Positions 1 to 46,900 of a DNA stretch of 64,000 bases are shown here, piece after piece. Origin of the DNA: Diadema setosum (taxonomy: Eukaryota > Echinodermata > Echinoidea > Diadematoida > Diadematidae); the NCBI RefSeq assembly GCF_964275005.1, contig NC_092688.1, forward strand, positions 26,142,934 through 26,206,933, in the 5' to 3' direction. The notes under the pieces are model-generated. The model saw only the letters and a list, made by a program, of their open reading frames with translations. It was not told the DNA's origin and did no database searches. The translations under genes and the position numbers were made by a program. The number at the start of each line of letters is the position of its first letter. Within the stretch, counting starts at the first letter, position 1.

Positions 1-1146
1 CATTGTGCCTTGGTAGCACAGTCTGCTACCTTATCACCTTGGGCAGAACGGCTGGGCAGGGGTCATTATTATTCTCCTGTTACCAGGAGTGCGATATAGT
101 CCACACTTCAAAGGGTTTGTTGCATTGCTGTTTGTGAGTAGTGACATGGCATGCTTGTGTGCTAACGCTGTGATGCACTCGCAACAAGGACTTGTAAGTT
201 TTTGCTGTTTTTTTTTTGTTTTTTTTTTTGGGGGGGGGGTCGCATTAAACAAGGGACAACATGATTTCACACAGTAACTATGGTCTAACTGTGCCTTTGA
301 CCTGTGATCTTTTTCAGCTAAAAGGGAGACCTACTACTTCTAGATTTATCTCATCTTCCTGGACACCATGTTGCTTCATGCTTTCTTACATTCCCTTTCC
401 ATTCAGATTACTGACTGGTTCCTTTTAAGATTCCCAAGATTGCTTGCATAATGTGAATACACACTTGGGGTCATATATATAGAGTGTCGTTGCAGTTTAT
501 TGCATACAATTCGGGCATCCGTCCACAAGATCTTCTTCAAGTTTCTGGAAAGTTCCAGATCACACCTACACGAAACATGACAACAGATTTATTCCTACTG
601 AGAATTAGATTTGTAAATAAACCAACAAATAAACAATCACGCAAGCATACTGCATTTGTACTTGTTCTCACATGAAACTAATTGCAAACTCCCACAGAGC
701 GTAAGATGAGCATTCAATTACACAGTTTATAAAATGGGTGCAAGAATGTAGCCAATTGGAAGCGCTGAAATGAGTCACGTGTGCATACATTAATTTCTCA
801 CTAACATGCACGGCCTGACGTTACAATGTTTACACTAGCAGTGCGCACTCAATCAGTTGTTACAAGTGCGTCGCGCGCTACTATACGCGCTGTCAATCCT
901 GTCAACAACTTCTAGTTCGGGCTGCCGGCCGGCCTTTCTTGTGTGCATAACGTGTGTGGCGTACGTATACTCTTATACGTAATACAGTACTTATATATGC
1001 TGGATTTCCGAGTGCGACGTGCGTAAATGTTTGGGACGAACATCTTCGGACATCTTGACTCTTGAGAGAGTGCTACATGTAGCTGACTGGTATTGACCCA
1101 CAAAGGTACGTGAAAAATGCTGTTAGTTTTCGACCCATTTTTTAAA
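1..1146. other. Non-coding stretch, no gene seen
   Basis: No open frame here shows a recognisable domain. The stretch contains a T-rich then G-rich run at about 208-239 and AT-rich unique-looking sequence. If inversin continues to the left of the window, this is part of its downstream intron. I looked on the minus strand for the expected IQ-motif exon of inversin and did not find it. Confidence 0.5.
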
Positions 1147-1319
1147 ACAAATGATGCACAGGATTATTTCGTGGCATAAGTGGAGATGCAGCTCACTCTC
1201 AGGTATTTACAATGTAGTGCAACATGCACTCGGCTTCGCCTCGTGCATGTTTCACAATTGTAAATACCCTCGAGTGCTCTACATCTCCACTAACGCACTC
1301 TATCCTGTGCATCATTTGT
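1147..1319. mobile_element. Short inverted-repeat element (MITE), about 173 bp
   Basis: The 18 bases at 1147-1164 (ACAAATGATGCACAGGAT) are exactly repeated in reverse complement at 1302-1319. Further inside, the arms still pair (AGTGGAGATG with CATCTCCACT; GGTATTTACAAT with ATTGTAAATACC). A central hairpin (CATGCACTCGG with CCTCGTGCATG) forms the loop. A foldback of this size without coding capacity fits a non-autonomous DNA transposon. No clear target duplication was found, so the superfamily is open. Confidence 0.7.
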
Positions 1320-1497
1320 ATACTGTACGCTTTTCAGATCAGGAAAGGGGAATTTCCAACTTCATCCCTTCAAATATCCACCTCTCGATCCCCTCCTCCT
1401 CCATCAAAGAGAATACAGAGGAATAGATAAGTGGGTAAATATCACAATGATATTTTCAGAAGTTGTCTTTGCTGCTCAGCACGAAAAACTTAGAAAC

Positions 1498-1511
1498 ATG
1501 ATCTCCCAACA
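1498..1511 (+). repeat. Left target-site duplication of the LINE
   Basis: The 14-base word ATGATCTCCCAACA occurs here and again at 7305-7318, directly after the tail of the LINE. A perfect duplication of this size flanking a truncated LINE is the normal trace of target-primed reverse transcription. It places the LINE's 5' edge at about 1512. Confidence 0.75.
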
Positions 1512-1643
1512 CTTCAACGAAATCCTTGATAGACCACCACCAATAGAAGAGGCAGAATATACAGAAAGCGGAAACTGACCTGGAAGTGGATACCACCCCA
1601 CCTCGCAAAGCTGAAATTGTAATAGTTATAAAATCACTCAAGA

Positions 1644-2648
1644 ATGGGAAAGCACCAAGGACAAGACAATTTGAATGCAGAACTGTTTAAAGCAAACTCA
1701 GAGTTTGCAGCAGAAGTACTTCAACAGCTGTTTGCAATGATATGGAATGAAAAGAGATTACCAGCAGAATGGACAGAAGGTGTTATTGTTAAAATCCCCA
1801 AGAAAGGAGCATTAAGTAACTGCAATAACTGGCGTGGTATCACACTCCCGTCAGTTCCAAGTAAGATCTTAGCGAAAATCATCATACAGAGAATAGCAGG
1901 CGCAGTAGATGAAGAGCTCAGAAAGGAACAAGCGGGATTTCGAAAAGGAAGAGGTTGCATAGACCAGATATTCACACTATGGAATATTATAGAGCAGTGT
2001 ACTGAATGGCAGAGGCAGTTGTACATCACCTTCATGGACTTTGAGAAGGCATTTGACGGTATACACAGGGATAGTCTGTGGCGAATATTACAAATGTACG
2101 GCATCCCAGGGGAATTTGTTCTTCTTTACATCAAAAGTTTCTATGGCAATTCCAAGTGTTGAGTTGGAAATGGCAACCTAAGTTTCGCAGTGAAGACTGG
2201 ATGTGCCATGTCATCGTTACTCTTCAATCTTACGATTGACTGGGTCTTGAGACGAACAACAGAAGACCACGCAAGGGGAATCTAGTGGACACCCTTCTCT
2301 AACCTAGAAGACCTTGATTTTGCAGACGACTTAGCACTGCTCTCACACACGCACAGACACATGCAAGAGAAGACAGCACGGCTCAGTAGATATGCACAAC
2401 AAGTTGGGCTGCAGATAAATCAAAAGAAAACTGAGATAATGATGCTAAATGTTCCAAACCCCTCACCCACCCATGTTCCCAAAGAAGAATTGTCAACAAC
2501 AGAACAGTTTACTTACCTGAGAAGTACAGTTAGATGTGGTGGAGGAGTAGGCATTGACATTCGGAACAGCCTTAACAAAGCCAGAAATGTATTTAGGATA
2601 CTAAACAAGGTGTGGCAGTCATCACAGTATAGAAAAAGACCGAACTGA
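1644..2648 (+). pseudogene. Reverse transcriptase fragment of the LINE
   Basis: This is the best preserved coding part of the LINE. An uninterrupted 172-codon segment runs 1644-2159, and a second segment (2361-2645) covers the thumb region with QVGLQINQKKTEIM and TYLRSTVRCGGGVGIDIRN. Two in-frame stops and at least one frameshift separate and end these pieces. The catalytic Asp residues of FMDF and FADD are still present. It once copied its own RNA into the chromosome; it is now a fossil with no host role visible. Confidence 0.85.
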
Positions 2649-3415
2649 AATTGTATCAAAGCTGTGTATTAATGGCTCTCCTTTACAGATCAGAATGTTG
2701 GAGGATGACTGATAGTGGTCTTACAAAGCTCTTGACAATCCACACACACACACACAAAAAAAAAAAAAAATCTAAGGCGAATTCTTCGTATACATTGGCC
2801 AAACATGATATCTAATGAAAAGTTATTAACACAATGGAAAACATCAGAATGATTATCAAGAGAAGACGATGGAGATGGATAGGCAGGGCTGCACACTGGC
2901 GCCGGTCCGACGGTCAAAGACCGGTAAAAGTCACTGTCGGACCGGTAACTTTTCAGGAAATCCACAAGTTACCGGTCCGACATGACCAGTAAAAAAAAAA
3001 AAAAAAAAAAAAAACATTGGTGGGGTCAGTAGAAAGGAAAAGAGCAGCCCCGATCAGGGAGAAACAGAATGCAAGATATCGCACTGTTCAACAAGTTTTA
3101 CGCAAGTTTTCGTTTATGTCTACCGGTGCAATTTGTACAGTAAACGGGATTAGTTTTGAGCACTAGCAGTCGACCAGTTATCGCAGTCGCGCTAGCTTGC
3201 GCATTTGGCGTTGCTCACGCACTGCATGCAATGCAAAGCATGTATACAGTGTAACTGCTTTTCGATTGCTTGCGATCGGCGGTCATGCCAGACAAGAAGC
3301 ATTGATAGAAGCGCACGCATTTCTGGGTCATTTTACTCATGATTTTTAACGCAAGATCGATCCGATCCCGGCTTCGCTGCAGCGTGGCAGTTATGTTAGA
3401 ACTAATATACTAGTG

Positions 3416-3534
3416 TCGATTTTTAGAAAAAGTAAAAACACATTCGATATTCAGCGATACAGTAAATGGCACTGATTGCGTTTATTTTCATTTTACACAG
3501 TCATTTCACAAATGAATATTTTCATTCGCTCAGA
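3416..3534 (+). repeat. Left copy of a direct repeat bracketing the satellite array
   Basis: The segment beginning GTCGATTTTTAGAAAAAGT and ending in a CATTTTACACAG...TTTCACAAATGAA block resembles 6708-6795 in the same orientation, just past the other end of the array. It suggests the array grew between, or together with, two copies of an older internal sequence of the element. Confidence 0.6.
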
Positions 3535-3544
3535 ATGGTCTCAT

Positions 3545-6500
3545 AATGAAGATAGGCGCAAAAAAGGATCACGAAATCGGCCCTTCCGTGAACTTTTTAA
3601 GAACGCATGCACAAAATGTGAAGAGATAATACTACGGAGAAAAAAAAAATCATGAAATCATGGCAGTCCCGCTTACATATTTGAGGTAGAAATCGTCCCA
3701 AAAAGGATCATGAATTCGACCGGCCGCGTCGTATCTTTCAAAAGCTTATGATGTACGAAATGCGAAGAGATTATAGAGGAGAAAAAAAAATAGAGGAAAC
3801 AGTTTGGTGAGTGCATCATAAAAGATTACAGCCGAATAACAATTCATGAAATCAACGCAATCCCGTTGAAATTTTATGAAACAATAGGCGCAAAAAGGAT
3901 CTTGAATTCAGTCCTGCATGCCGTGTTGTTCATCAAAAACGCATGCACAAATGCGACGAGATTGTCGGGAGAAAAATAAAAAACACATTTTTACCCTTCT
4001 GGTGCGTGCATTACAAAAGATTACATCCGAAGTAATTCATGAAATCGCCACAATCCCGCTGATATTTGCAGGTAGAAATAGGCGCAAAAAGGATCGTGAA
4101 TGTGAACGCATGTACGAAATGGGAAAAGATTAGCGGGAGAAAAATAAAGGACACATTTTCACCCCTTTTGGCGATTGCATCATATAGATTACAGCCGAAT
4201 AGTAATTCATGAAAATTTGGCAATCCCGTTGGAATTTGAGTAAACAATAATAGGCGCAAAAAGAATATCGAATTCGGCCCTGCATGCAATGTATAATTTT
4301 GAAAACGCATGCACAAATGCGAAGAAATTATCGGGAGAAAAATAAAGAACATATTTTCAACCCTTCTGGTGAATGTATCATAAAAAAGATAACAGCCGAA
4401 ATAATTAATGACATATCGCAATCCCGCTGATATTTGGCGCTAAAAGGATCGTGAATTCGGTCGCGACGTATAGGCATGTACGCAATGCGAAGTGATTATT
4501 GGGTGAAAAATACAGGACACATTTTCAACCCCTTTTGGCCCGAGCATCATAAAGATTAGAGCCGAATAATAATTCATAAAATCATCGCGATCCCGTTGAA
4601 GTTTGAGGAAACGATAGGCGCAAAAGAATCATGATTTTTGGCCGTGTCGTGTATCTTTTAAGAACGCATTTACGAAATGCGAAGAGTTTATCGGGGAAAA
4701 ATAAAGGACACATTTTCAACCCATTTTGGCGCGTGTATCATAAAAGATTGCATCCGAAGTTATACATGTAATCATCGCAATCCCGCTGATATTTGAGGTA
4801 GAAATAGGCGCAAAAAGGATCGTGATTTCGGCCGTGTCGTATACCTTTCAAGAACGCATGTACGGAATGCGAAGATTATGGGGAGAAAAATAAAGAACGC
4901 ATTTTCAACCATTCTATTAGTTGGTGCGCGCATCACAAAAGATTACATCTGAAGTAATTCATGAAATTGCCACAATTCGGTTGATATTCAATGTAGAAAT
5001 AGACAATAAAAGGATCGTGAATTCGGCCATGTCGTATACGCAAGTACGAAATGCGAAGAGATTATTGGGAGAAAAAAAAGGACACATTTTCAACCCCTTT
5101 TGGCCCGTGCATCATAAAGATTACAGCCGAATAATAATTCATGAAATCATCGCAATCCCGTTGAAGTTTGAGGAAACAATAGGCGCAAAAAGAATCATGA
5201 TTTTTGGCCGTGTCGTATATCTTTTAAGAACGCATTTACGAAATGCGAAGAGTTTATCCGGGAAAAATAAAGGACACATTTTCAACCCATTTTGGCGCGT
5301 TATCATAAAAGATTACAGCCGAAGTTATTCATAAAATCATCGCAATCCCGCTGATATTTGAGGTAGAAATAGGCGCAAAAAGGATCGTGAATTCCGCCGT
5401 GTCGTATACCTTTCAAGAACGCATGTACGGAATGCGAAGAGATTATGGGGAGAAAAATAAAGATCACATTTTCAACCTCTTTTGGCGCGTGCATCACAAA
5501 AAGTTACATCCGAAGTAATTCATGAAATCGCCACAATTCCGCTGATATTTGAGGTAGAAATAGGCGCAAAAAGTATCATGAATTCGGCTGTGTGGAACAT
5601 CTATAAGAACGCACTTACGAAATTCGAAGAGTTTATCGGGAAAAAGTAAAGGACACATTTTCAACCCATTTTGGCGCGTGCATCATAAAAGATTACAGCC
5701 GAAGTAATCTATGAAATCGTCACAATCCCGCTGATTATTTGAGGTAGAAATAGGCGCAAAAAGTATCATGAATTCGGCCATGTGGTGCATCAAAGAACGC
5801 ACTTACGAAATTCGAAGAGTTTATCGGGAAAAAATAAAGGACACATTTTCAACCTCTTTTGGCGCTTGCATCAGAAAATATTACAGCCGAAGTAATTTAT
5901 GAAATCGTCACAATCCCGCTAATATTTGAGGTGGAAATAGGCGCAAAAAGTATCATGAATTCGGCCATGTGGTGCATCTTTTTAAGAACGCACTTACGAA
6001 ATTCGAAGAGTTTATCGGGAAAAAATAAAGGACACATTTTCAACCCATTTTGGCCCGTTATCATAAAAGATTACAGCCGAAGTTATATGTGAAATCGTCA
6101 CAATCCCGCTGATTATATGAGGTAGAAATAGGCGCAAAAAGTATCATGAATTCGGCCATGTGGTGCATCTTTTTAAGAACGCACTTACGAAATTAGAAGA
6201 GTTTATCGGGAAAAAATAAAGGACACATTTTCAACCTCTTGGCGCTTGCATCAGAAAATATTACAGCTGAAGTAATTTATGAAATCGTCACAATCCCGCT
6301 AATATTTGAGGTGGAAATAGGCGCAAAAAGTATCATGAATTCGGCCATGTGGTGCATCTTTTTAAGAACGCACTTACGAAATTCGAAGAGTTTATCGGGA
6401 AAAAATGAAGGACACATTTTCAACCCATTTTGGCGCGTTATCATAAAAGATTACAGCCGAAGTAATTTATGAAATCGTCACAATCCCGCTAATATTTGAG

Positions 6501-6672
6501 GTGGAAATGGGCGCAAAAAGGATTGCAAATTCAGCCCTGCATGTCGTGTGCCTTTCAAGAACGCATGCACAAATGCGAATAGATTATCGGGCGAAAAATA
6601 AAGAACTCCTTGGAGCGCATACATCAGAAAATTTCACAGCTAAAATAATTCATTAAATCGTCGCAATCCAAC
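3545..6672. repeat. Tandem array, about 16-17 units of roughly 190 bp
   Basis: A unit holding ATAGGCGCAAAAAGGATC, an AAGAACGCA block, TCGGGAGAAAAATAAAGG and GATTACAGCCGAA recurs from about 3545 to 6672. Starts of the GGCGCAAAAA block fall near 3884, 4077, 4250, 4435, 4612, 4804, 5178, 5368, 5560, 5750, 5936, 6127, 6316 and 6507, so spacing is 174-192 bases. Left units are more diverged than right ones. At the right end the sequence at about 5840-6090 matches that at about 6225-6470 almost exactly, a two-unit (about 380-bp) step. Short open frames within it repeat with the unit and are not genes. Confidence 0.92.
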
Positions 6673-6707
6673 TGACCACCAAGAGCAGGTTACGCAGCAA
6701 GTTCGTG

Positions 6708-6795
6708 CGCCGATGTTTAGAAAAAGTCACAAACGCATTTGATACAATCTAATTTTGTTCATTATCATTTTACACTGTAATTCACAAACAAACAT
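6708..6795 (+). repeat. Right copy of the direct repeat bracketing the array
   Basis: Begins CGATGTTTAGAAAAAGTCAC and continues to a TCATTTTACACTG...ATTCACAAACAAACATT block, matching 3416-3534 imperfectly. After it come T- and A-runs and a G-run (about 6887-6896), then the right end of the element. Confidence 0.55.
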
Positions 6796-7304
6796 TCTAG
6801 TTTTTCCCATTTTTTTTTTTAATTTCTTGTGCAATAGATAATGCAAGTTAAAAAAAAAAATATTAATCTGTAAAATGTACATGGGTGGGGGGGGGGTACG
6901 TCCATAAAAAACAAGAAAATAAGTTTATTTTTTAGGTTGTCGTTGTTGACCGGTAAATTTTCCGTTCAGACCGGTAAAAAATGTTAAAACGGGGCATTTA
7001 CCGGTCCGACAGAGACAGGTTGGACCGGCAGAAAAAATGGGTTAGTGTGCAGCCCTGGGATAGGGCATGTCGTTAGACAGAAAAAGGACAATGTTACCCG
7101 CACAGCCCCTCCATTGGACACCTGAAGGCAAACGTAGGAGAGGACAGCCCAGGAACACCTGGCGGAAAACGGTTGAGAATGAGCTAAAGACCTTAACCCA
7201 AAATTGAAGAACGATGACAAGGATGGCCCAAGACAGGCAGAGGTGGAGAACCTTTGTTACTGCCCTACATGCCAATCGGCATAACGGGCAGTAAGTAAGT
7301 AAGT

Positions 7305-7318
7305 ATGATCTCCCAACA
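7305..7318 (+). repeat. Right target-site duplication of the LINE
   Basis: Exact second copy of ATGATCTCCCAACA (first copy at 1498-1511), directly after the GTAA-repeat tail of the LINE. Confidence 0.75.
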
Positions 7319-7452
7319 ACAATATTGCAGTGAACAAAAGCCATGTGTGACTATTGTTCTTATTTCCATGTTCATTATATTCTTATCCCGGTGCAAGCCC
7401 AAGCAACCCCAAACTCCACTCTCCAAAACATTGCGGTTGCAGAGTTTAATAC

Positions 7453-7677
7453 CTGAATACGCGTGGCTGCCATGTCCCTGATGCCTGTGATGGACAGGGC
7501 CCCCTGTTCCACCATGTACTGGGAGACCTCATGGTGGTCGTTGAGCAGGGCGTAGTCCAGCGGTGTGAAGCGGTCCTCGGTCAGCTCCATGTGGTTGGGG
7601 AAGGCCCTGTGGTCAAGGAGGAGCTTGACCGCATCCAGGTAGCCAGTGCTGCAGGCCCAGTGAAGAGCCGTCATGCC
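7453..7677 (-). CDS. INVS: INVS exon, 75 codons, last repeats and start of IQ1
   Basis: Acceptor TTCTACCCACAG, donor GTATTA. It encodes GMTALHWACSTGYLDAVKLL, then LDHRAFPNHMELTEDRFTPL, then DYALLNDHHEVSQYMVEQGA, ending MAATRIQ. Human has LDFAAFPNQMENNEERYTPL and ends this exon region at AAFKIQ, where the IQ motif begins. This is the last inversin exon visible. Confidence 0.95.
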
Positions 7678-10600
7678 CTGTGGGTAGAAGGCCAGCTAGC
7701 TAGTTCATCTGTGCTCTTTGTATAACTTTTCTGAACTTTTGGGGGAAAGCCTTCATAAGACCCTAAAACCAGAGTCTCAGGATAGTCTAAAAATGAAGAC
7801 AAGCTGCCATTTAAATGTTCCCTTTATATAACTTACTGTTATTCAAACAGTCATACAGTTTCAAGTATTGGTAATGGTTTGTGAACTTGCAATTTTTTTT
7901 AAAATCAATATGTGCGTATTCAGTAAAATCATTCTGTGAAAACAGCTACTAAATTAATCTATCCAGGGTCTACTGTACCCATCACACTTTTTCCTGGCAC
8001 TTTCTTCATCAAAGTCTTACCTACAGCTATGCTGCCAATGTTTATTTTAAAACATCTTGATAAAATAATTTCAAATGACACAGCAAATCATAGGAAAGAG
8101 GCATACGGCCATGGTTACCTCATTATCCTGAAGGTTTGGGTCGGAGCCCTGCTCTAAGAGGAGCGTCATGCAGCGGATGAAGCCCCCGTATGCCGCACAC
8201 TGGAGCGGGGTGCGTCCGGCGTTGTCCTGCACGTTTGGGGTGATGTCGTGCTGCATGAGCTCGTGGCACACACAGGAGTGACCACCTAAGGCAGCCCTGG
8301 GTGAGAGAGGAAAGCACACAGATGTTGCAGGTCTCAAATTTCAGATTAGCATTTCATAAATTATTCTGCAAAGTTATCATACGCATGACAATGGTGATAA
8401 TAAGTATAAGACTATAAAAGTCATCATAGGCATGACAATGGTGAGATAATAATTGGATAAGACTACCAACACCTTCATCACTTCATACTCCTCATACTGA
8501 ACAGTGCGATTGAGACAGCAATTACACAGTTTCTGCACGTACTATGAAAAGGCCATCACAATTATATCTACTAGCCTATATAGTGCAGGTTGACATGATG
8601 CATGACACTACTTCAATTCTCTGAAAAGCACTCCTTTACAGCTTCTATTTTGCAATTACCTGATTCAAATTTGTTCCAAGGAAAAGAGAGGCCCTCAAAC
8701 ATTCATGTTGTGCCATGAGCTTGCAATTACAGTTTCTGCCCATACTGTAAAAAGGCCTTTACAATTAATTCTGCTGCTGGTCTAAACATAGTGCAACTTG
8801 ACACGGTATATGACACTATTTTAATTCTCTGTAAAGCACTCCCGTTCCTTTACATCTTCTATTGTGCAATTATGTGATTTCAATTTGTTCCAACTAAAGA
8901 GAGTGGCACTGCAATTTTCATGCAGTGCCATGAAAAATAAATAAAGCACGGACTTGTTCTTCAACAGCACATTGGCTTGTGCTTTCTATGTCAACGACCT
9001 CTGTAACATCACCGAGACCTTTATTACAAGGTGTTGACAAATCACCAGCAATTCATAGTCAGGATCCTAATTTGAACATTAGTTTCACAAGTTCAGTACC
9101 ATATGTGACCATGCATCACAAAACGAACAAAAAGTCGCACGCAGTGATTTTGTGTGAGGACTGAAAATAGGTGAAATGGGTCAACCTAATTAATCTTGAG
9201 TTTTTCATATTTTCTGAAAAAGCAAGACCTTAGTCTTTTTCTATACTATATTAAAGTTTGGAATCATAAAACAAACAGGAACTTGTGATTTCAGCAGTTT
9301 TCCTCGAACACTTTTTGGTGGACTAGTGTGATTAGTTGTTTCTCATGGAACCCTCTTCCCATTTCTAAAAAAAACCCTGTCCATACACTTCACTTTCAAC
9401 TCCAATAACTTTGGAAAGAATGATGACAGTACATTGAAAGTTGGCATTAATCATGTACAGAATGTGCTAATGAAGCATGTCCAATTTCAGCTTAATCTGA
9501 TAATCCCTTCATTGTTGTTGCTCCAGTGGTCAACATCCTGTTTTTTGTTCCATTCATCCCACAGCTAGCATAGCTTGGTAAAGATTATGTGCTTGAATAC
9601 ACCCTGTACTTCAGAGCCTGTTTTCTCAGTTCACACTTTCCAGAGTGTGTCCTTTCTTTCCAATATTTGGATAGGTTAGGAGAATCCATTCAAATTGAGT
9701 TATACATCATTTTAAAGCTTAGAGTCTGCTCTTTCAGAATCTATTTTTAACTAAAAATCCATGTCTGGCGACTTTTTGTTTGTTTTGTGATGCAGGGTCT
9801 CATATTACACTACACATCGACTTGCTGACACAACATACTCTCATTTATAGGTTTTATTTGTTGAGATGCAAATTTCCTTCAAGTTGTCTTCCTCTACAAA
9901 ATGAAATTTGTAAGATTGCAACTGCTGATCTGTAATTTACAGATTAGCAGTTGTAGGGGGAAACAAATTGAAGGAAATTCACATCTCAACCTTCACCCCT
10001 CTAACTAGTATTCTCTTGCTTTTTATTTGTTTCTAACATTCTTTTTTTTAATTATTATACTCTACATTTTGAAGATGAAGAAACATACCAATGGAGAGGC
10101 GATCTCCCTTCCTGGTCAACAATCTTCACTTGTGCACCCCCTGGAGCATAGATCAAAACAACAATCAAGAAGAGTTCCAACAACAGCACACAATTTAGTT
10201 TACATTCTCATTTATCAATTGAGTAAAAAGGGAGCTTTCACAGTGGTAATGCAGATGTCAGAGTGTGCATGGTTTTTGAAAATGTTGGCAGTTGGCACAG
10301 TTACGAGTTTGAAATCCTGCATCCACTCAAATTTACAATGGTAATGGGCCACAGCAGCATTGGTCAAGAAGCCATGGTGCAGCAGAAGGAATGTGATGTC
10401 ACGTGCACATTTGCATATGGATAATTTGTAACTCAGCTGAGCTACAGTGCTGTGCATATGAGAAAGTGCTTGTAAAGCAGAATGGCTTGAAGAAAGTACT
10501 ACCATCAAGATTGGTTTTTGCCTGCATCACACAGCTCACTACATCACCTTTCAAAAATTGAGGGTCCTATTGATGGACAGTGTACTACAATCCCACTTAT

Positions 10601-13600
10601 TTCCTTGCCTGGGGCTGCTAAAACTCTCCATAGGGTAAGTAATGTGAATTCCAGTTGCTTGTTAATTGTTGCCCGTGTTCTTAGCAGGAGAAATATCTCT
10701 TGCAATGACCTCATGGTTGATTTGAAAGAAAACAAGCAAGTTTTGCCCTCATGCAAACATTGCATAGCTGTGTTACAGCAGAACACAAACAATAGTACAC
10801 AGCTCAATAGATGACTTAGATGATGCCCTTATATTCAATCACTATTATGACAAAATTATGCTTGAACTTTTTCAAACTAAACAAAGCAAGCTGTTCTGCA
10901 GCTACAACTTTGGCAAAAATCTTTCACTGTGATTTTCACTAAACAGCAAATTACTGCATAAGACTTGACTTTACCTTCAGCCAGTGACCTCATGACCTCC
11001 AGATGACCCATCTCAGCTGCCCTAAAGAGGGGCGTGTGCTTCGTCTGGTCTTGTACATCCACAGCAGCTTCATGCTTGAAGGTTGGAAACAAAAGGCAAT
11101 CACATGGATCAAAATACTCAGATGTTTCCTCAGCTCTTTTGAATGGGAAAGAAGTTCCTTCTTGTATGACCAACATTTTGGGATTTCTGTGACTCTGGAA
11201 TCTGTACCATGGTACAGTTGGACAGAATTTGGATACTTGTAATACAAAGACTTAGAAAGCATGGTGATGTTGGTATTAAAGTGAATATCTCAAGCCAAAA
11301 ACAAAAGGGAATCCGTGAAATGAGTCATTCATACACATCAATTCCAATTTTTATTTGCACAATCATTAAAGATGTTTGTGTCCAAAAGATCATTTCCTCA
11401 AAACTTAACTTGTCAAGAATATTAGTTAACATGTTGTAAAATAATATGTCACCACATAGATCTTGCAGTATGACAATTCTCAAATATCAGACAGTTTGTG
11501 GGTTTGTTTGTTTTTTTTAACAACAAGGGGTTTAGGAGAGAGCCGAAAAGGAAGAAAATCCGTAATGCTCTAAATGACACAACAGTGATAGGACTGTTCA
11601 TTGCTACTAACCCTGAGTAAAACTCCAACAGTGCTGGCATGGCCTGACATGGCAGCTGCATGCAGAGCTGTTCAAAACAAAACAAATAGAAGGGGGATAA
11701 ATCATCATGATTTTTTTTTTAATTTGGAGTCAACATTCTCTTCTGCATCTGTCCACTGCAGTGCCTTGGAGTTTGGTTCTTGAATCGATTATTCATGACA
11801 TACTTCACTAGACATCTCCACTACTTAAAAGTTTATCATGATATTCATAAAGTCAGCATAGATTTTGGATTGTTCAGACAAGCCAAAAAGATTGATTGTA
11901 GATAAGCCAAAAAGCTTGATTGTAGAAGATCATTCACTGAAAATAAGGATAGATAAAAAAAATAATTTGCATGTTAGCGATTTGTTGATATTTATTTCAC
12001 TATAAGCAAATGATAAATTAGTACTTCTGGTCCTTAATATTTCTGTTTTTTGAGATTTTTTTTTTTTTTTTTTTTGGGGGGGGGGTTTCAATCTTTTTTT
12101 TTTTCCTTTTTTTTTTTTGGGGGGGGGTTGTGTGCAAGGCTTACTCTTACATCTGAGTCTAAATGACTCGATGGCTCTCATAACCATAATCAGAAACAGA
12201 GAGAAAGAACAAAAACATAATGCCTCAGGTACCCTTTGAGGAAGAGGCATAAAGATGTGTTTAATAATGCATTTTGAGTCTTGATTTAAGACTATTAATT
12301 GGAGATTTCTTGATTTCTAATAGTAAATCATTCCAAAGTTTAGGAGCTGCACAAGCAAATGCACACTCTCCTGATATCATTTTTTGTTTTAGGTGTAGGG
12401 ATATGTGGAAGAAGAATGTCTTTATTTTTATCTTATTTGCTTTTATTAATGGTTTAAAAGAAAACTACCATGGCAGCCAAAACAGGCCGAATTGAGGTAG
12501 TTTACACAGTAATACAACATAAGATTAACAATATCACATACAAATTGCTTATGAAAAAAAAAGACTTACATTACAGAACATATGTATATGATAACATAAT
12601 TGCATATTCATTCTACAGCTCAATTTCTAAAACACAGATATAATATCAAAAACCGCCAGACATTAACACGTTCATATAATACAAATAGAAATGCATATGA
12701 TTACAGTCTTGAACACACTTGACACTTTTACCCCTTCACACATAGTGTACACCTCCCTTTGGCAAAAACTTTGCACCTATTGTCATACACCCACTGTGCA
12801 CTTTATGAGTGAGTCTATGAGAGTTAACTCGACCAAGTTTGACACTAGCTAGGACTGTAGTGTAGTATCAATCCCAGGCTGCTCGCCACCAACCCTCACC
12901 TGTTGCTCCCGTCTTGTCTGTGGCATTGATGTCCTGTCCGTATCTCATCATGACCTCCAGGACACCATCGGCCCCCTTGCCCGCAGCCCACATCAGGGCG
13001 GACCGGCCCTCGAGGTCCGGCTCGTCTGTGATGCCTTCCCTCTGGAGGAACAGCTCCACCGTTTCCTAGCAACAAGAGAGAGAGAGAGTAACATCATATG
13101 GCTTTAAACTCTGGCAAAACTCTGGCAGTTAGAAGATGTGTTTGTCTGTTTGTTTTTTAAATGGCAGTAGTGCTACTCTTTTTAGCCTTCCCCCCGAGAT
13201 GCAGAGATGCTAAACTTGTAAGCAGCATTGCAGCATTTTGAGGGCTAAAAATTTGTATTTTTGGTGAAAAAACAGTTATTTCTGCCTTTCCTGCCATAGA
13301 TGTATGTAGTTAATTATAATTTGGGACAAACATCATTGTCCATGCTACCTTCAGTATCTTTGGCAAAACACGGTACAAATAATGCCACAAAAAGGAATGA
13401 TTGGCATCTCCGGAGTTGGCAGAGATGGTTTACAATCAAACATTAGACAAGCATGCAAGAAAGTCAGACTGTACTTTATGGTATACAAATATACTGCAAA
13501 ACAAAAACTTTTCTCAACAGATAAATCCAATCCAGTACATACTTTATACACCATATGTTCAGCAAGTCCAATCATTTCACTAATCAGAACTGCCCAACAA

Positions 13601-43916: not shown

Positions 43917-46900
43917 CATGGTTGTATCTTAGTGTGACCTCCAGTAGTTAGGGTATACTTATAAACTCTCATGTTACGAAACTTGTATGATCTAAATGTT
44001 ATACCACATTGATACAGTATGTCGTTGTTGAATTGTATGTACACATAAATTTTAACCTGTTGAGGACGAGTCCCGAGTGTACTTGGGCAGGTGTCTGTGG
44101 GAAATGTATGTTGCAGCAAAATCAGTCCATCCTCAATGGGTTGAAGAAAAGAAGCAAACAATGTTTCTGAAGCCATGTCTTAATGATGTTGTGCCCTGTC
44201 AAGTGTATGGTTATAACGTTCATGCCTTTCCTCAACCCCACCCCCCCCCCCAACACACACACACATACACACACCAGCACACACACTCAACAGATGAATG
44301 GAAATAAAAATGAAAAACAAAGGTTTAAATCAAAAAGATAGTGAAAGTGCATTTCAGGCCATTTGACTGGTTATTTCTTTCAGATTTCATCCTTTCAAGT
44401 TTATGACTAAACTTAGGCTATCAGTCAAGCGCTACGTTCTGTTATTAATGCCTTTGCTGTAATACAACCTGCATGTCCTTCGATGGCAAGTATCCTATTT
44501 ACTTGCTATATCAGCTGTCACCTTGTTCCCTGAGAATATTTGTATGATATTCATATACATAAATGTGTATAAATTGATCAGTCTGATGCTAGGTCACAAT
44601 CTCTGGTTGTGCTAGCTGAGAAGGTGTTTTGAAGATAGAGGCTGTATGGGTCCCTCTGCTAATGGAGATGATTGATTGAAGCAACTGCATTTTATCAACA
44701 AAAAAAAATGAGATTAAGATTCCATGTTTACAAAGTGACAGGTTTGATCAAACTCCAGTTGGAATGAGTGCTGATTTTATACACAAGAGTTTTGCTGCAG
44801 AGAAAACAAAATCATCTTCAAGTGATGAAGAGTAAAAAGAATGAAAGAGATTTGAACAATAACTTCCAGCTGTGTGTCAATACTATGCTAGCATGAAATC
44901 CTGCTGGAATGGAAGATATAAAATATGGTTATGTAAGAGAGAAATTGTGTCATAAACCACCTTTTCTTTTTTGTTTCTTATCTTGCAAAGAATTTAACCT
45001 GTCTGTGAGAATTTTGAAATCCCTATAATAATAGACTTTGGCTAGGACCAATCATGTGCCCATCTACAGGCAAAGTGTCTAGATGAATGATATTGCATTT
45101 TTGACAGGTAGTAAAAAGAGGCAGCAGAATCATTGTTAAGAAATGTTGTGTATTTAACCCATTTCGTATGGGAACCTGGTGACCTGTGTATTGAGTCTAT
45201 GGGCATTTCAGAATTCAGTATGGAATGGGTTAAAAAGTTCTCATAAGGCATGGTCAGACTGGCAAAAGATTGCGAAGTTTAAGATCGCGATCTTTAAGAT
45301 CTCAAAGTTTTGCCAGTGTGACCGCAAACTTCCTGCGAAACTTCCCGCGAAACTTCTCGATCTGTTTGCGGGCGGTGCCTCCGAAGTGCGAGGCCATTGT
45401 CATGTACAGATGTGCATTGTTACGTCACAATCACTAGCCATCGGACGGCGCACTCTTGCTTGCGCGCGTACCAATGGCCAAAACTTCGCGATCTTAAACT
45501 TCTCGATCTGTTGCCAGTCTGACCGCGCCTAGTGTGTGCTTTGATATGCATATAACCATGCTGTTTCCAAACTTTGTCCCTTTTTAAATTGAGTTTTGCT
45601 TCTTTGATTGCATGTTTCAAGTGCTTTTTCTTCTTTACTAGAAAAATCAACTTTTCTCTGTACATTAAAGGGAAAAGTGATCTGTAACAACAAGTTATGT
45701 ACATATTATGTGCTAAAACAGCCATCGGATCTTCTGTTTAATATGTTTCCTTTGTGTGATTCCACCCCAGGCTACTTTATGTACGACACACTCGACCTGA
45801 TGTCCAATAACACCTTCTCTACCTCTTGGCCTCTCTACACTCACCATCTGGTGGTAAGATGACCCAAGTTTCAAAATTTTATTTTTTATTACTTTTGTGA
45901 CTAATTTTGACAAATTGAAAACTATAAGATTAATGACATTTTGTGTATGACATACTAGACCTCAAATCAAGTTACCATCAAAGTGGTAAATAACAACATA
46001 TCTATCTTGTGGCCTCTCCACACCCACCATCTGTTGGTAAGATGACCAACATTTCAAACTAATTTTGTTTTGGTTTGTTTAATGACTTTTGTGACTAATT
46101 TTTGACAGATTAAGAACAACAAGGGAAAGATCCATAGAAACATGGTATATTACAGAGGTGGTTTGATACAAATATACTGCATCAAACTTATAGGAGTACA
46201 TCATGAGCTGAATGTCAGTAGCATGTGCATGCCCAACTTTGAAATTTTGATTGTCAAGACTGATAATTGGTAAGACTGGATCTGCCAGTACAGGGGTTAA
46301 TGAATTGATCCATTTGCTTTGAGGAAGTTGAGGGTTTTGATTTTGTGTTCTCAAACATATCTCGAGGACTGTGAGTTTTATAGACATAATTTATTATCTA
46401 AAGCACTTCTAGATCCTAACAAATGCCGTGTTGACCATGAGGTGTCGTCTAGCTGTAACACACCAACATCCATATTGAGAAAAGATGATGAAATGATCCT
46501 GGTTGTATTTTAAAAAAACATTTGTTAAACTTGTAGTCAGAGTTTTGAATCACATTATGTAAGAAACTGGAAATGTCCATACTGCTTGAAAGTAATGTTG
46601 AGTGATATGATTTATATCTGTCTGTCTGTCTGTCTCTCTCTGGCATTTCTGCAGGTTCTTTTCCTGTGCTTCACCATCCTCTCCCTACGGCAGCTCTACG
46701 CCACCATCAACATCGCCATGATCCTGGAGCTGAACTCCATCTTCCTGCATGCTCGCCAGCTCCTCCTCATGTACGGCTACTCCAAGCAGGACATCGTCTA
46801 CCGCATCAACGCCGCCCTCAACGTCCTCACCTACGTGGTGTGCCGCTCGGGCTCCATGGGGTTCCTCTGCGTCTGGGTCATCGTCACCTCGCAGGACGTG

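Follow-up and report, generated by a model that had tools for sequence, protein, structure and literature searches.

A tandem array carried as an apparent passenger by a non-autonomous DNA transposon nested in a LINE of Diadema setosum

Internal arrays of transposons have been proposed as seeds of satellite DNA. Among the closest described systems, Galileo, a P-superfamily element of Drosophila (PMC4168063), makes mostly 7-bp target duplications and contains tandem repeats of ~140 bp, which lie in its very long inverted ends and, in the case of D. willistoni, are limited to one copy. Tetris/TIR-220 of D. virilis (PMC4079207) is a DNA transposon with ~220-bp tandem units in variable copy number; these repeats lie in the inverted ends, the target duplications are 8-10 bp, long satellite-like arrays exist, and the repeats have been proposed to aid transposition. 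The Cg_HINE/Pearl non-autonomous Helentrons of oysters (PMC7492417) carry dispersed central arrays of ~165-bp units; on average, an array has at most some 5 monomers, and the longest has 29.3. Finally, miDNA4 of Xenopus, as summarized in a review (PMC12628747), is a non-autonomous element of the Tc1/mariner type with inverted ends and a variable internal satellite bracketed by short AT-rich direct repeats.

Here we describe a nest of three layers in the window, i.e., the whole 64,000-nucleotide stretch of the Diadema setosum genome that was analysed: a tandem array within a transposon-like element which itself interrupts a LINE (Table 1). All parts of this nest, as proposed in a preliminary description made from the sequence alone, were recovered in place. 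The LINE as a whole spans positions 1512-7304 and is interrupted by the 4,174-bp element. In the open-frame list, its coding sequence is split over several frames, with reverse transcriptase pieces at 1632-2162 (PF00078 RVT_1, E 5.3e-18) and 2286-2648 (E 3.6e-07). The 14-bp sequence that had been read as its target duplication, ATGATCTCCCAACA, is found exactly on the plus strand of the window in two copies only, at 1498 and 7305. When window positions 1420-1700 were searched against the same genome (912.7 Mb, 102 contigs), all five candidates, including the window's own copy, were scored, and the alignments of the four other LINE copies start at window positions 1508-1510. Allowing for a few bases of chance match, these starts confirm the LINE boundary. 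The alternative that LINE coding sequence reaches beyond 1498 on the 5' side, in which case the 14-bp duplication would not stand, is thereby rejected.

Table 1. Features of the nested locus (positions in the window).
Feature	Position	Strand	Basis or remark
LINE target-site duplication (14 bp), 5' copy, ATGATCTCCCAACA	1498..1511	+	exact match
LINE 5' part, 5'-truncated, decayed	1512..2883	+	PF00078 matches; copies elsewhere
Left 7-bp target-site duplication, GGATAGG (LINE sequence)	2877..2883	+	
Non-autonomous cut-and-paste element, 4,174 bp, without a transposase-length open frame	2884..7057	+	
Left terminal inverted repeat, CAGGGCTGCACACT, 14 bp	2884..2897	+	exact; identical in 21/21 copies
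GTCGGACCGGTAA-related subterminal motifs at the left end, in both orientations	2899..2981	+	three sites
Left member of imperfect direct repeat around the array, ~105 columns	3417..3520	+	
Tandem array, 17 units or part-units of ~190 bp	3550..6611	+	unit profile
Right member of imperfect direct repeat around the array	6711..6796	+	
Right subterminal motifs related to GTCGGACCGGTAA	6959..7031	+	four sites, up to 3 mismatches
Right terminal inverted repeat of CAGGGCTGCACACT	7044..7057	-	exact in window; exact in 19/21 copies
Right 7-bp target-site duplication, GGATAGG	7058..7064	+	
LINE 3' part with (GTAA)n tail	7065..7304	+	joined to 5' part in other LINE copies
LINE target-site duplication (14 bp), 3' copy, ATGATCTCCCAACA	7305..7318	+	exact match

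LINE copies without the insert, for which the preliminary description had suggested a search, are present in the genome. A probe of 301 bases, consisting of the two LINE flanks joined without the insert, gave 18 candidates, all of which were scored, yielding 20 matches: nine lack the insert and continue through the junction, two correspond to the halves of the window's own LINE (probe positions 1-113 and 107-301) and nine stop short. Three of the crossing matches cover nearly the full probe at 83-87% identity (C13:14294348, C6:24522552 and C6:24603607), and the other six align over probe positions 64-173 (one match, 83%), 67-245 (one, 67%) and 26-297 (four, 65-66%). These nine LINE matches are paralogous empty sites.

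Beside the nest, ankyrin-repeat frames are found on the minus strand (window 7375-7695, 8071-8340 and 10877-11251, the third match being under the Pfam cut-off); we take this sequence to resemble inversin. Farther along the window, at 45266-45509, there are short tandem repeats of AAGATCGCGAAGTTT together with, in the opposite orientation, AAACTTCGCGATCTT, possibly a palindromic element.

The inverted ends of the inserted element and its GGATAGG duplication are exact. The insertion point falls within the GGG codon of the RRRWRWIGH stretch and, on our reading of the sequence, the duplicated bases restore this codon on the right side, in agreement with the interruption of the WRWIGH codons noted previously. 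Sites related to GTCGGACCGGTAA are confined to the terminal ~100 bp in the three elements scanned, with none in the array (up to 3 mismatches allowed), and a 17-bp inverted repeat is located at the left end (2935-2951/2966-2982). The subterminal motifs are possible transposase-binding sites; given their terminal position and absence from the array, the latter is probably not a binding platform. The direct repeat that brackets the array aligns in the window over ~105 columns with 72 identities (score of 47 versus the best of 30 among 200 shuffles), and in three other elements it scores 60, 44 and 41 versus shuffle bests of 27, 27 and 28.

The longest open frame in the window's element is at most 142 aa. 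The sole long frame in the fetched copies, a 568-aa one with a DDE_1 transposase domain in copy L031, was rejected as the element's own transposase because it belongs to a later-inserted DDE_1 transposon, which we assume to be pogo-like. The remaining frames within elements reach 241 aa; the Pfam scan covered, besides the L031 frame, a 163-aa frame left of the array in L049, for which there was no match up to E 1.

The exact 14-bp end occurs 1,141 times in the genome (549 + 592) versus 0 for the reversed control, indicating that the ends are not a product of chance. A search with the left end produced 825 candidates, the best 40 of which, the window included, were scored at 89-100% identity; the further 40 listed matches represent the inverted self-match of the same 40 places. 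From the 39 others scored, the 20 copies most similar to the window's left end were fetched, a choice by which young, array-bearing copies are over-represented. In all 20, the left end, the array and the right end follow in the same order. The copies examined are 3.4-6.8 kb long. Several of them, including the two longest, contain stretches that the rest lack, among them those in L031 (element positions 302-3405), L047 (1618-4503) and L044 (1433-2347). With the window counted, perfect 7-bp target duplications flank 19 of the 21 copies and 8-bp duplications none; L036 agrees at 6 of 7 positions and L045 has no duplication. The right end deviates in L044 and L045. With L045 set aside, 15 of the 20 target sites have A at position 5 and 18 have G at position 7. 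Copies with different duplications are spread over 11 contigs.

Three pairs of near-identical copies were tested for shared flanks, and the flanks proved unrelated in all three. In one such pair, L032 and L033, which have 22 unit hits each and are 99.69% identical over 5,188 bp, the duplications differ as well, implying that a 22-unit array moved intact. Because other copies have the same ends and target duplications of their own, the insert stands as an independent mobile element nested in the LINE, as the preliminary description had it, and it withstood both of the tests named there as able to refute it. The family moves as a unit between its 14-bp ends, and the array travels along with its unit order fixed.

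A few individual copies deserve mention. L043 and L045, on C14, face each other with ~14.6 kb between their outer ends and are 99.91% identical; a duplication flanks one of them, whereas its partner lacks one and is altered at the right end, possibly reflecting local or aborted transposition. Their origin by duplication was dismissed, as the 100% flank match is a single stretch of genomic DNA contained in both fetched sequences and their own near flanks do not match. At 7305-7465 of L033 (reverse complement) lies a relative of ~165 bp with almost joined ends, no array and the 7-bp duplication TGTTATC, which by its sequence represents an array-free short form of the family. A 295-aa open frame with a SCAN domain adjoins the element in L032 (5486-6370, minus strand).

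The preliminary description considered the element hAT-like. The end sequence alone speaks for this label, the CAGGG-type ends resembling those of hAT elements. However, hAT duplications are usually 8 bp, whereas those of the element are 7 bp in 19/21 copies and never 8 bp, a length that fits Galileo or a hAT lineage with 7-bp duplications. A value of ~8 bp for hAT also appears in a source consulted for the definition of Dada. Mobilization by a transposase from a hAT lineage that makes 7-bp duplications is a reading to which we assign slightly less than even odds: the genome contains 40 matches to the dimerization domain (PF05699), and the worked extraction example of the Repbase paper, 'hAT with 7-bp TSD', implies that such families exist, but none of the 21 copies has the 8-bp duplication usual for hAT. 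The positions of the domain matches have little power here, with one of the 40 in a stretch with listed ends, ~65 kb from the nearest of them.

A P-superfamily transposase related to Galileo/1360 is a genuine contender, even if we would bet against it. The duplications of the element (7 bp in 19/21) lie within the 7-8 bp of this superfamily; those of Galileo are mostly 7 bp, with tandem repeats within the ends of some copies, and those of zebrafish Pdre2, also of the P superfamily, are 8 bp. Furthermore, the genome encodes P-type transposases, with 22 matches to PF12017, eight of these in open frames of 605-925 aa, and 22 matches to PF21789, the two domains being found in 0 of 14 control genomes. 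By contrast, the target preference of the element (A at position 5, G at position 7) is unlike the palindromic GTANTAC of Galileo. Nor was such an end found in the 1.0-1.5 kb examined beside three P loci, i.e., upstream of one (1.5 kb) and downstream of all three, the same one included (1 kb each); the best end-like sequences there are three matches with 4/14 mismatches each, and the upstream piece seems to begin within an intron and may stop short of the end of that element. Location again has little power, no P-type match falling in a stretch with listed ends, and neither hAT-type nor P-type transposases could be tied to the ends of the element in these comparisons. The P-type genes whose open frames measure 735-925 aa, some of which score identically, are located at C2:19576442, C3:27095087, C6:40661092, C6:39084809, C18:36246441 and C10:36436415, and P-type families might have been recently active in this animal. 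The Dada superfamily, characterized by 6-7 bp duplications, insertion into multicopy small RNA genes and the lack of terminal inverted repeats, was rejected in view of the clear 14-bp inverted ends and varied target sites.

At ~3.06 kb, the array makes up 73% of the element, close to the 3.1 kb, roughly 190-bp units and about 75% of the initial estimate. TRF detects periods of 190/380 at 3803-6606, and the unit profile widens the array to its limits in Table 1. Across the 21 elements, the profile gave 333 hits, 13-22 per element, of which 301, each covering at least about 120 positions, were used for unit comparison. The closest relative of a long unit is found in another element in 292 cases and in its own element in nine. 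Among the nine basic elements with 13-14 hits (L036 and L048, in each of which a pair of units is fused, and elements with other hit numbers were left out), units of the same rank in different elements are 95.1% identical on average versus 79.8% for units of different rank. Moreover, in eight elements the array diverges much like its surroundings, with between-element identities of 95.7% for the array, 97.1% for the left flank and 95.4% for the right flank. The rank-matched similarity, combined with this parallel divergence, implies that the unit order was fixed in the founder and has hardly been homogenized since.

Earlier steps have left traces in the resemblance of units 6-8 to units 9-11 (87, 92 and 91% identity) and in the bracketing direct repeat. 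Window units 13-16 are a local re-amplification of the ancestral unit 13, whose copy number is 4 in the window and 5, 6 and 8 in L037, L043 and L032, respectively, the same variants being common to several elements. The re-amplification took place in a subfamily that includes the window. In L039, units 6-8 are partly duplicated, in place of the unit-13 re-amplification. Thus, apart from the unit-13 zone, the array appears to have been made once and then copied intact without homogenization. On balance, we favour the view that an array of ~14 satellite-like units has come down, each rank from the same rank, over a few hundred transposition events and without homogenization, with unit 13 still re-amplifying. 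If so, every array would be a readable record of the descent of its element, and the family would offer a natural control, in which tandem arrays, when short and dispersed, do not homogenize by default.

It had further been suggested that such an element could seed satellite DNA around the genome, and a search for the unit as free satellite had been recommended. An exact 16-mer of the unit occurs 684 + 723 times in the genome versus 0 for the control. Pairing of units with ends, based on the first 100 listed places of each, covers C1 and C2 up to 13.7 Mb, that is, 7.25% of the genome. Within this portion, there are 18 exact end pairs, 3.4-7.1 kb apart, all 18 with units inside, and 26 unit clusters. 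Of these clusters, 25 lie within 8 kb of one or more exact ends, and 18 have both ends. The exception is a cluster of 4 hits at C1:35573467 with no exact end within 8 kb. The largest cluster comprises 6 exact hits and the longest span is 2.4 kb, so that by exact 16-mer clusters and element ends no long free satellite was found in this 7.25%, and the suggestion gains no support here. Of the 100 listed ends, 64 are unpaired, and 57 of these have no exact unit within 8 kb, indicating that array-free or decayed relatives exist. The same portion holds 94 unit hits versus 102 expected from the genome total, which leaves little room in the assembly for a big free array with this exact 16-mer. Scaling to the genome, we infer ~250 two-ended loci and ~360 array loci. 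A 380-bp array probe gave 993 candidates, and the best 40, which were scored and gave at least 236 matches, show, by eye and among the matches listed, dispersed short arrays only. Going by the assembly, the array is element-bound.

These counts bear on the idea of a live satellite that acquired the ends of a transposon and is homogenized and exchanged with free satellite. The ~190-bp unit and 380-bp higher order are satellite-like, the copy number of unit 13 varies, and one cluster in 26 lacks an exact end nearby. Nevertheless, rank-frozen units with little homogenization in cis, the 25 of 26 clusters beside an element end, none of them long, and the little room in the assembly for a large free array with the exact 16-mer make this idea very improbable. 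That the nest or the family is an artefact of assembly or a segmental duplication has virtually no chance, since, for all the proneness of arrays to misassembly, the distinct 7-bp duplications on 11 contigs and the unrelated flanks in the three near-identical pairs refute it as regards the family; the array length given for any single locus is that of the assembly.

We propose the following history. The LINE would have inserted beside the ankyrin-repeat exons and then decayed, and a non-autonomous cut-and-paste DNA transposon would later have entered it via a 7-bp staggered cut. In the founder of this family, the array may have arisen by repeated local duplication, of single units at first and later of a three-unit block, from 6-8 to 9-11, the growth having taken place between the bracketing direct repeats, which would be older. 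Mobilization in trans would depend on a transposase of hAT or P type that recognizes the ends together with the subterminal motifs CCGGTCCGAC but ignores the array. Changes in array length would be confined to sporadic events of local slippage or unequal exchange, most of them at unit 13, and the array would be a tolerated passenger without a demonstrated role. We place the probability of this account as a whole, namely, LINE insertion followed by an array-carrying non-autonomous transposon that is mobilized in trans with the array as passenger, at roughly 93%. From its unit order and genomic distribution, the array would seem to be a stable passenger and not to give rise to free satellite DNA.

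Thus, in a young family with an array in all fetched copies, there is no long free satellite in the 7.25% of the genome covered and almost no homogenization. Two questions that are usually merged, dispersal of an array through the genome and its conversion into satellite, are hereby separated, and the unit-13 zone, with 4, 5, 6 and 8 copies, allows the initial step by which an array grows to be compared across insertions.

A literature search by general terms, rather than by sequence, found no published report of this family. In kind, however, the element is already known: it is a non-autonomous TIR transposon with an internal satellite-like array, combining inverted ends, a target duplication, an array in many copies and no transposase. 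The long free arrays outside elements that distinguish satellite DNA did not appear in the 7.25% of the genome covered, and the genome-wide unit count leaves little room for them in the assembly. The element shares with Galileo the 7-bp duplications and internal tandem repeats (PMC4168063) but differs in its 14-bp ends, its central array and the presence of this array in every fetched copy. It resembles the Cg_HINE elements in its dispersed central arrays, from which it is set apart by inverted ends, a target duplication and 13-22 unit hits (PMC7492417). With miDNA4, it has in common inverted ends, a non-autonomous nature, a variable internal satellite and a direct-repeat bracket, although with a 7-bp duplication and a bracketing repeat of ~105 columns (PMC12628747). 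Like Tetris, it is a DNA transposon with tandem units in variable copy number, but its motif-free array departs from the proposal that the repeats help transposition. Furthermore, Tetris units mostly do not cluster by array (they do in 2/3 complete elements), whereas here rank predicts similarity (PMC4079207), and this rank-frozen array is the less usual part of the finding.
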